Positions 3,226-5,246 of a stretch of 6,457 nt of DNA are shown here, piece after piece; position 1 is the stretch's first letter; each line of letters opens with the position of its first letter. The DNA is from Chloroflexota bacterium (GTDB lineage Bacteria; Chloroflexota; Chloroflexia; JAMDCE01), in the NCBI GenBank assembly GCA_023489135.1, contig JAMDCE010000608.1:1-6457 (forward strand), given 5' to 3'. A program made the position numbers and the translations under genes. Below the pieces are notes generated by a model, which ran no database searches, had not been told where the DNA came from, and was given only the letters and a program-made list of their open reading frames with translations.

Positions 3226-4200
3226 TCATTCCAGAGACAGGCCCCAGGCCAGCGCTAGGTGTTCAAGAAACAACCGCGGGTACCACTGCTCCCACAGATC
3301 GGTCAATGAAAACTGGTCCACTTCAAAACGATGGAAAACCAGAAGGCTCTCGGGCTGGTGCACAAACAAGCTCTCGGTCCTATCGTCGCTCTGGTAGGCC
3401 CGATAAACTTGCTCAAGCTTGGCGCGCTGGACATTTGCAAAGACGTCCATCGTGGCCCCTCGTTCTTCTGCGCTTGCACCGCCATACAGCGGCGTAAGGC
3501 GGCTGATGACTTGAAGCGACAATTCTTTATCAAAACGGCTGTGCGCTAAACCATAGAAGTGGCGCTCGAGATGAACGAGTACTTGTGCCTCCTTGAATCC
3601 AGCCATAGTCATCACCTCTTGTCTCACCCGTGAGACTTCGTCATCGAACAACTCGGTCAAAGCCACTAGCCGGTTAAGCGCCCTCTCCAGCTTGCGCGGG
3701 ATCTCGCCAGGCGGCTTATAAGAAAGATCGTGAGTGGTCTCGCTCCAGGCATGTTGCGCGCAAGTGTGTATTTGAATCTCGCAATTTAATCCAAGAAAGT
3801 CGCTGATCGCTGGACCACCGTCATCGGGCTTGAGCTGGACCTGGCAGTGAATTCCACTATAGCCAAGCTTGTCGACCCCGAGGCGCTCCATTTTGTCTTC
3901 ATACTCAAGCACGTCGAAAAGATTGTAGAGCAATTCCTCCGTCGGTTCCCGATGATCTTGGTAGAGCAGCACTATTCTGACACCCGCCTTGTCTGTAATC
4001 TGCCTGATAGGATCTGCGTAACCCTTCCGAACTGCCTTCTTAACCAAACTATCGAGGGCCTTTGCCCGGTAAGATGTTTCACACGGTATGCCAGCGTCGC
4101 ACAGGCCGCCAAGCAGGCGCTCGTGCACATGCTTGGCAAAGCTTTCGTAAAGCGCCTTGTTCTCAATCCAAAAAGATCGCAGAGCTCCTAACTCCATCAT
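3226..4200 (-). CDS. RelA/SpoT-fold nucleotide pyrophosphokinase-like protein with C-terminal extension
   Basis: The product is 324 aa. Residues about 40-200 match the RelA/SpoT synthetase fold (PF04607): Y44-R45-A-K47...S51...K54 (ATP-side basic patch), ITDKAGVRI (D70, G73, R75), K111-LGY (113-114) with H118, and EIQIHT (E141, Q143) followed by AW and H157 D L S Y161 K162. No HD hydrolase, TGS or ACT domain is present, so it is a small alarmone synthetase-like enzyme rather than a full RelA or SpoT. Family members make (p)ppGpp or ppApp, or, as toxSAS toxins, pyrophosphorylate tRNA 3' ends. Which applies here is unknown. Substitutions are noteworthy: GYSG for the usual GYRS, H145 for the Arg of EIQIRT, and T156 for the usual Glu before the conserved His. 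Residues about 200-324 form an unassigned extension. The start ATG overlaps the upstream NA37 stop as ATGA; MM at the start leaves the second ATG possible. Confidence 0.87.
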   Translation of the reverse strand: MMELGALRSFWIENKALYESFAKHVHERLLGGLCDAGIPCETSYRAKALDSLVKKAVRKGYADPIRQITDKAGVRIVLLYQDHREPTEELLYNLFDVLEYEDKMERLGVDKLGYSGIHCQVQLKPDDGGPAISDFLGLNCEIQIHTCAQHAWSETTHDLSYKPPGEIPRKLERALNRLVALTELFDDEVSRVRQEVMTMAGFKEAQVLVHLERHFYGLAHSRFDKELSLQVISRLTPLYGGASAEERGATMDVFANVQRAKLEQVYRAYQSDDRTESLFVHQPESLLVFHRFEVDQFSLTDLWEQWYPRLFLEHLALAWGLSLE

Positions 4201-5246
4201 CGTCGGCCTCGGACATTCCTGAGCCGGTCCTCAAATTCCACCTTCGTCAGCCCACCATCCTGTTCGATCAAGTGGACTTTATTCGAGAAAACCTCACCCG
4301 GAGCGGTGATCGATATGCCGGTTTCGAAATCCATCTGCATCCGTTGGATTCGCGTCCGAATTAAGCCGAGATCTTTATCTATCGCTTCATTAGCAACTTG
4401 CGATGACTTAAGATGATCGATGAATAACTGCCGATCTTCGGTCTCAAGGTGCGTGTTGGCGAACTGTTTTGGGTTGAGCGTTGCCTGGTTGCTATTCATC
4501 TCAGCTAACAACGCTGTCTGATATCGGCCTTTGCGCAGAGGATCGCTAACCACGTCATTAATGAAGTCTTCGGCAGCATCGAGAAATCGTTTGGTCGTGA
4601 CCTCGGCAGCCTCTGCGAGTTGGCAGCCCAGAAACTTCTTTAGGAAGAAATCGGCGATCTCATATCTTGGGAGGCGGCCACGCTGATGGTCGGATACGAC
4701 TCCGTCAATATCTTCAACGCCCGGACCGTGGTGCAGGAACACGCCAGCCTTAAACACCTTAGTTCCTTGGGTGAGCATAAGTTCGCGAATGTGCTCGATG
4801 CGAAAGGTCTTTCGCCCGTCGATGTTGCTCTGCTCTACCCTAACACCGATCTCCCGTTCTAGTTTGAGAATCCCTACAGCAGGCATCCCTCCGATGGCAC
4901 AGTCGACCACCGTAATTAGCCCCTTTGAATTCACGCCGGTTTGGGTCTGAAACAGATGATCAGCGATCCGCTGTGAAAATGTGACAAAGTCCATGCCATC
5001 ACTATCGAGAAACCGTGTGATCCCCTGCGGAACCGGAGATGAACTCGACAGGTCGAGGGACACTTTGAAAGCACAGGAAGAGCACGCGCTCTGAGTTATC
5101 TTCTCCTTGATGTAAAGCCTAAGCTCATCCGTGAGGGGACTCGCTACCTCGCTGAGTACGGGCAGTGTCCCGTTGTCAGCACGCCGAATGGGAACTTCGT
5201 GGACGATTACCTGCCGCACATCAAGCGTCGCGAAATCGAGTGCCAT
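4197..5246 (-). CDS. NdpA/YejK-like nucleoid-associated protein (NA37 family)
   Basis: The product is 349 aa, close to the roughly 335 aa of YejK. It follows the NA37 (PF04245) layout. An N-terminal strand-rich start (VRQVIVHEVPIRRADNG) leads to a helix and Phe-rich segment (near 78-100). A central core follows: GLITVVDCAIG, VGILKLE, a ligand-type run KTFRIEHIRELMLTQGTKVFKAGVF (spread over 146-170), then a VVSDHQRG motif (183-190). The hallmark IADFFLKKFLGC is at 197-208. The C-terminal third is helical. NA37 proteins bind the nucleoid or DNA, and their precise function is poorly known. Here it is the first gene of a two-gene operon: its TGA overlaps the start of the RelA/SpoT-like gene by 4 bp, so translation is probably coupled. 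That makes it a candidate regulator, sensor or antitoxin partner (inference only). The ATG start at 5246 has a strong Shine-Dalgarno. No signal peptide or membrane segment is seen. Confidence 0.8.
   Translation of the reverse strand: MALDFATLDVRQVIVHEVPIRRADNGTLPVLSEVASPLTDELRLYIKEKITQSACSSCAFKVSLDLSSSSPVPQGITRFLDSDGMDFVTFSQRIADHLFQTQTGVNSKGLITVVDCAIGGMPAVGILKLEREIGVRVEQSNIDGRKTFRIEHIRELMLTQGTKVFKAGVFLHHGPGVEDIDGVVSDHQRGRLPRYEIADFFLKKFLGCQLAEAAEVTTKRFLDAAEDFINDVVSDPLRKGRYQTALLAEMNSNQATLNPKQFANTHLETEDRQLFIDHLKSSQVANEAIDKDLGLIRTRIQRMQMDFETGISITAPGEVFSNKVHLIEQDGGLTKVEFEDRLRNVRGRR

Follow-up and report, generated by a model that had tools for sequence, protein, structure and literature searches.

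Our data indicate that two overlapping genes within a 6,457-nucleotide stretch of Chloroflexota DNA (referred to here as the window), which encode an NA37-family protein and a RelA/SpoT-fold enzyme, form a candidate mobile two-gene anti-phage module of the abortive-infection type. We estimate the probability of this reading at approximately 0.6. The pair is probably an uncharacterized phage-defense or growth-arrest system, and we favor a conditional growth-arrest or defense module since the two genes are paired across phyla, the enzyme is intact, the pair is sparsely distributed on islands, and defense genes lie nearby at some loci. The features of the window are collected in Table 1.

Table 1. 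Features of the window, with positions counted from its first nucleotide.
Feature	Position	Strand	Remarks
NA37 (PF04245) gene	4197-5246	minus	349 aa, intact, first in operon
RelA/SpoT-fold enzyme gene	3226-4200	minus	324 aa, intact, second in operon
ATGA shared by the NA37 stop and RelA start codons	4197-4200	minus	from ORF calls
GGAGGTGG stretch	immediately 5' of NA37 ATG	minus	read from sequence
TIGR02391/PD-Lambda-3_B-like gene	1801-2664	plus	context; candidate member of the system only
Cluster of five tRNA genes	866-1341	plus	near the region with the NA37-RelA pair

Both open reading frames (ORFs) are present as the earlier note had described them, including their ATGA overlap, and Pfam confirms the identities of both as NA37 and RelA_SpoT. 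A 4-nt overlap between the two genes was also found at loci L003, L006, L016, L041, L043, L047, and L049, and other copies either overlap by 1 nt (L044) or are separated by gaps of at most about 45 nt. At gathering thresholds, Rfam returned nothing besides tRNA in the window. The window contained no att-site repeats except tRNA similarities and chance-like pairs, and its promoter-like matches were at the level of shuffled sequence (2 vs. 1.6 expected); terminator-like matches numbered 6 vs. 2.6 expected.

Enzymes of the RelA/SpoT fold include stress synthetases as well as toxins from toxin-antitoxin and secretion systems. The window enzyme scores above the Pfam RelA_SpoT cut-off (PF04607; 51.6 vs. 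27 bits) and consists of a synthetase domain (residues ~1-199) followed by a C-terminal helical part (residues ~200-324) with a QPE motif. The catalytic residues of the synthetase domain (i.e., R45, K47, K55, D70, G73, R75, Y114, H118, E141, and Q143) are invariant in 30 of 30 enzymes and align with those of RelQ. By both sequence and fold, the enzyme core is nearer to RelQ and RelP than to CapRel or FaRel2; the CapRel alignment spans residues 1-189 of the enzyme model only, and the C-terminal part lies outside nearly all structural matches. The solved chains of RelQ/YjbM and RelP/YwaC (approximately 210-255 residues) align to only the first ~200 residues of the window enzyme, which differs from these proteins further in that it falls below the NCBIfam YjbM (RelQ) equivalog cut-off (45.9 vs. 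320 bits), occurs sparsely, and is paired with NA37. The enzyme also resembles the PADLOC candidate PDC-S33 (34.3 bits), a partial match that covers profile positions 62-175 of 349 and falls within the synthetase part. In common with toxSAS (FaRel2/ATfaRel2, FaRel, PhRel2, and the fused CapRel), it has a RelA/SpoT synthetase domain and an operon partner. Unlike toxSAS, it carries the extra C-terminal helical part and a core closer to RelQ/RelP, and Pfam shows NA37 alone in its partner rather than pZFD, Tis1-like, PanA, or a hydrolase, the known antitoxin types (PMC11782079). The antitoxins of toxSAS block the donor or acceptor site (PMC11782079). No test based on residues of the enzyme was found to distinguish among GTP, ATP, and tRNA as acceptors. 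Since the enzyme core is nearest to the (p)ppGpp-making RelQ and RelP, our data suggest that a tRNA acceptor is not favored over a nucleotide product. The earlier reading of the genes as a defense or toxin-antitoxin pair is supported in part, by the conserved operon and the island setting described below; the toxicity, neutralization, and phage sensing that it entertained are putative, and the tRNA pyrophosphorylation is not preferred.

NA37 proteins are known nucleoid proteins. The window NA37 protein scores above the Pfam NA37 cut-off (53.2 vs. 24.6 bits) and below that of the NCBIfam YejK equivalog (19.8 vs. 341 bits), so that its earlier description as NdpA/YejK-like is correct for the family and does not extend to YejK itself. 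YejK is nevertheless the best fold match, with a loose structural alignment (15% identity, rmsd 8.8), and the two differ further in that the window protein shares an operon with a synthetase. The match to the KwaB fold of Kiwa is weak, an unrelated human kinetochore chain ranks fourth among the matches, and the likeness may reflect just a common arrangement; moreover, no KwaA-like gene adjoins the pair in the window, where a RelA-fold enzyme is found instead. An argument for DNA binding based on charge was unsupported: the window NA37 protein contains 42 K+R vs. 49 D+E, and D+E exceeds K+R in both the NA37 and RelA proteins of all six copies counted. Bulk DNA binding by NA37 is not favored because the protein is not basic. 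PADLOC gave no match for the two NA37 proteins scanned.

We gathered 65 NA37 and 35 RelA homologs, from which we built a RelA alignment (A1; 31 of 35 rows, four short rows omitted) and an NA37 alignment (A2; 40 of 65 rows, those omitted being short or close to others). Scanning genome contigs with A1 identified 17 RelA loci, titled Actinomycetes, Armatimonadetes, Planctomycetota, Dormiibacterota, Chloroflexi, Phormidium, Streptomyces, and uncultured Bacillus. NA37 lies directly upstream on the same strand at 16 of them, and the exception (L005) starts inside RelA at a contig end. Fifteen of these 17 genomes contain one NA37 match, G001 contains two pieces of a split gene, and G005 contains none. 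For the reverse test, A2 was run on 1781 genomes (392, 251, 246, 244, 249, 201, and 198), 40 of which had a match that was either strong (at least 200 bits; 22 genomes) or weak (below 110 bits; 18 genomes). A RelA gene adjoins NA37 in 21 of the 22 genomes with a strong match; by comparison, a RelA-fold enzyme was paired with NA37 in 0 of the 18 genomes with weak matches only (approximately 1.5 kb searched on each side, less at contig ends). Eleven of the strong-match genomes had come from the RelA scan, and 10 of the other 11 are paired (eight Streptomyces and two in the phylum of the 'Bacillus'-titled locus). Since the pairing holds at 16 of 17 RelA-seeded loci and for 10 of 11 independent NA37 matches, it is not due to chance. 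The earlier note had proposed that rare adjacency of the homologs would speak against the pair; what we found is a conserved operon in unrelated genomes of several phyla.

The divergence of the two proteins is correlated. Their distance matrices gave r = 0.955 for 30 pairs and r = 0.893 for 18 dereplicated pairs, values that were reached by 0 of 2000 permutations and that, being computed for this gene pair alone, may reflect plain shared descent in part. Split or cut genes (L001, L005, L007, and L047), the near-identical L013 and L045, and repeat fetches were left out of these matrices, and one of the 30 pairs (P0002 and P0068) was paired by inference, as both proteins were reported from a 144,305-base contig. 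In a plasmid collection, 32 records matched the window RelA and five matched NA37. Among the 20 of the 32 RelA matches listed, three reached at least 75% query coverage, all with NA37, and the other 17 reached at most 64% coverage, none with NA37; the remaining two plasmid NA37 records are Neisseria and are among the 12 RelA matches outside the best 20. Within this collection, adjacency to NA37 tracks the full-length enzyme. A profile search with A3 identified 1318 proteins at E <= 0.001 among 7996 candidates scored, the weaker of which may be other synthetases; Klebsiella, Raoultella, Pectobacterium, Enterobacter, Pantoea, Vibrio, Acinetobacter, and Yersinia are found among the 120 matches listed.

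Two further arrangements of NA37 were observed. The sole unpaired strong match (L065:1498-4035) is a close NA37 with no RelA within 1.5 kb on each side; as judged by eye, a small ORF whose N-terminal part is hydrophobic overlaps this NA37 gene, and an integrase-like ORF follows the NA37 gene. Separately, a distant NA37 is directly followed by a different partner at L032-L036, L039, and L051, which come from the phyla of the Chloroflexota, cyanobacterial, and 'Bacillus' loci, respectively. The partner in this second NA37 pair measures at least 349-486 aa, each copy running past the end of the stretch examined, and yielded no Pfam match above cut-off (six scanned) and no PADLOC match (three scanned); by eye, the longer copies have a hydrophobic stretch near the stretch end.

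The NA37-RelA pair is sparsely distributed. It was found in 12 of 392 Streptomyces genomes and in 3 of 5426 complete Escherichia coli genomes (SCU-102, KFu023, and BEC1-S17-ESBL-07), where it is always chromosomal. In E. coli, the pair resides on an island between tRNA-Thr (which we take to be thrW)/proA and other chromosomal genes, together with a tyrosine recombinase gene that is a pseudogene in L044; the operon adjoins the recombinase in SCU-102 and lies several kilobases away from it in the other two. Plasmid-borne pairs were found in Klebsiella pneumoniae (L041), Ochrobactrum quorumnocens (L043), and Streptomyces (L042). A pair is also present at L047:6001-8047, on a chromosome-sized Neisseria gonorrhoeae record that is labeled a plasmid and has no annotated features listed there. 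Scans of viral contigs with A1, A2, SCU-102 RelA, and SCU-102 NA37 found no relatives. Among phage records, the Klebsiella-type NA37 had no match and the Klebsiella-type RelA matched three, at a coverage of 54-56% only.

Known defense genes accompany the pair at some of these loci. We scanned the neighbors of the pair with PADLOC at 15 loci (the window, L003, L004, L006, L008, L009, L010, L012, L014, L016, L017, L041, L042, L043, and L046), taking one to six genes per locus that were hand-picked by size and nearness (25 of 106 candidate ORFs). A named defense or restriction match lies nearby at six of the 15 (the window, L003, L012, L017, L043, and L046). PsyrA (563 bits) and PsyrT (1045 bits) follow RelA in SCU-102 (L046), JetA, JetB, and JetC of Wadjet are found at L012, a PLD-SNF2 helicase and a type IIG restriction enzyme at L003, and a weak LmuB-like match (47.6 bits) with a weak TnsB-like match at L017. 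Only generic helicase matches were found at L016 and L041, and the neighbors scanned at the other seven loci (L004, L006, L008, L009, L010, L014, and L042) gave no match of weight. In the window, the TIGR02391/Hypoth_Ymh gene matches PADLOC PD-Lambda-3_B (261.5 bits) and also carries a match to the Aga_HEPN label (43.3 bits); no other PD-Lambda-3 model was matched among the four window proteins scanned. The neighboring HEPN-type gene of the earlier note is therefore present as a TIGR02391/PD-Lambda-3_B gene, which we take to be HEPN-type in view of the Aga_HEPN match. The island setting claimed for the pair was borne out by islands and plasmids with known defense genes near the pair at some loci. 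Given that the neighbors were hand-picked and lack a matched background, they support a defense role and do not prove it.

Some neighbors recur. On the Ochrobactrum plasmid, a TIGR02391/PD-Lambda-3_B-like gene (L043:10223-10783) is located at a distance of ~3 kb from the pair, and such genes are therefore near copies of the pair, in the window and L043, that are very distant from each other. Downstream of the Streptomyces operon, a gene with ResIII and 'helicase associated' (HA) domains recurs by Pfam in L012 and L016, and PADLOC matches at L017 are similar to those of this helicase.

Broken copies of the pair were also found. The N. gonorrhoeae record (L047) has an open NA37 and a RelA split between two frames; in L001, a low-coverage assembly, NA37 is the split gene and RelA is not. 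The split RelA of L047 and the absence of RelA at L065 are what one would predict if the cost of the pair lay with its second gene. Extra short ORFs lie beside the pair at L006:6275-6883 and L007:3744-4208, with RelA profile scores of 40.6 and 49.6 bits, respectively; that of L006 resembles the C-terminal part of RelA by eye. These ORFs appear to be relics or detached pieces of RelA.

We considered whether the pair might be a plain toxin-antitoxin or stabilization module, in which NA37 would be an antitoxin that keeps plasmids and islands without phage sensing. The bicistronic arrangement, in which the proposed toxin comes second, the 4-nt overlaps in several copies, the location on plasmids and integrase islands, and the correlated divergence of NA37 and RelA are all consistent with such a module. 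However, NA37 is large (~350 aa) and structured, unlike typical labile antitoxins, and neither the defense neighbors at some loci nor the optional membrane partner described below fits it well. We regard this reading as possible on balance, though not probable; it has the step of restraint in common with the anti-phage module that we prefer, so the likelihoods that we attach to the two are not exclusive.

Some operons contain a third gene that encodes a predicted membrane protein. The three E. coli operons and that of the Klebsiella plasmid start with a gene annotated as DUF4231 or SLATT, upstream of NA37, with one or two transmembrane (TM) segments predicted in the three tested (L041, L044, and L046) by a simple hydropathy rule of our own that was used throughout. 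The SCU-102 gene matches the PADLOC '2TM Effector' (24.6 bits) and the Klebsiella plasmid gene matches DUF4231 (36.7 bits). At seven Streptomyces loci (L010 and L012-L017), an ORF of ~200-230 aa lies directly downstream of RelA, with 4-nt overlaps in L012, L013, L016, and L017; it has three predicted TM segments in six of the loci and one in L015. The downstream ORF at L002 and L005 has two predicted TM segments. Within 700 bp of the pair, no same-strand multi-TM ORF of at least 70 aa was found in the window, L003, L004, L008, L011, or L043, and in the window no same-strand ORF of this size had any predicted TM segment. We therefore place the membrane gene outside the core, and its candidacy as a universal third part was rejected. 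This optional partner of other copies was not visible to the earlier note.

The membrane gene bears on the alternative that the pair operates by CBASS-style signaling, in which NA37 would sense infection and the enzyme would make a diffusible alarmone-type nucleotide that gates the SLATT or 3-TM effector. This would account for the SLATT/DUF4231 genes annotated directly upstream in the enterobacterial operons, for the 2TM Effector match, for the 3-TM gene directly downstream in Streptomyces, and for an enzyme core closest to the nucleotide-making RelQ and RelP. DRT10 is an experimentally tested precedent: its defense depends on a SLATT protein (PMC12632851). The likeness to DRT10 and CBASS 2TM effectors lies in the SLATT/DUF4231 gene that opens the enterobacterial operons seen; unlike those systems, these operons have no annotated reverse transcriptase or CD-NTase, and the window copy has no SLATT gene. 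Given that the membrane gene is missing near at least six copies and that a messenger role of the product is putative, we hold this alternative to be doubtful; it overlaps in part with our preferred reading, and the two are likewise not exclusive.

An ordinary stress regulator, i.e., a (p)ppGpp synthetase of the RelQ kind that responds to the state of the nucleoid, would agree with the RelQ/RelP-like core and with relatives that are named GTP pyrophosphokinase in databases. We find it improbable: the low frequency among Streptomyces and E. coli genomes and the location on islands and plasmids do not fit a housekeeping role, the enzyme has ~120 extra C-terminal residues, and the YjbM equivalog is missed by a wide score difference. 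Chance neighbors or an annotation artifact can be dismissed, as they are refuted by the adjacency counts, with adjacency kept across phyla, and by the correlated divergence.

Returning to the anti-phage module, we propose that NA37 binds the enzyme, perhaps through the extra C-terminal helical part, and keeps it off. NA37 would then read an infection signal and release the enzyme; a nucleic acid or DNA-topology state is our leading guess for this signal because the NA37 fold is nearest to the nucleoid protein YejK. The freed enzyme would use ATP to pyrophosphorylate a purine nucleotide, tRNA being less likely on present evidence, and this would stop growth. The membrane protein added in the copies seen from enterobacteria and Streptomyces would probably serve as a second effector. 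Precedents exist in the toxSAS systems, in defense of the CapRel type that phage proteins trigger (PMC9712102, which reportedly concerns CapRel, and PMC13423816), and in a (p)ppGpp-making enzyme that can by itself inhibit growth (PMC12691689). Against a defense module stand the empty viral-contig scans, the seven of 15 loci whose scanned neighbors gave no match of weight and the two with generic helicases only, an NA37 that is not basic, the loose YejK fold, and the split NA37 of L001. A more speculative extension is that NA37 senses the state of the phage or nucleoid and that the RelA-fold product both starves the cell and opens the SLATT/3-TM effector where present, with the second NA37 pair as a possible sister system; we consider this scheme unlikely as a whole.

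The claim that no named system has this composition agrees with our searches: we found no named NA37-RelA system in the literature or in PADLOC (2023), a search that may miss recent naming. The literature searched held nothing that joins toxSAS with a nucleoid-associated protein, SLATT with a GTP pyrophosphokinase, or a nucleoid-associated protein with a pyrophosphokinase and phage defense, and NA37 with defense returned only unrelated papers. The effector fold is one known in immunity, whereas no named system searched has such an NA37 partner with its SLATT and 3-TM additions. The natural E. coli operons make the proposed system directly testable in laboratory E. coli. If the pair works as proposed, NA37 would add a type of regulator that restrains RelA/SpoT-fold enzymes and would gain an immune role, and alarmone-type nucleotides would possibly gate SLATT membrane effectors. 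Should the extended scheme be true, a CBASS-like pathway would use alarmone-type nucleotides as its second messengers, and NA37 proteins would act as immune sensors.
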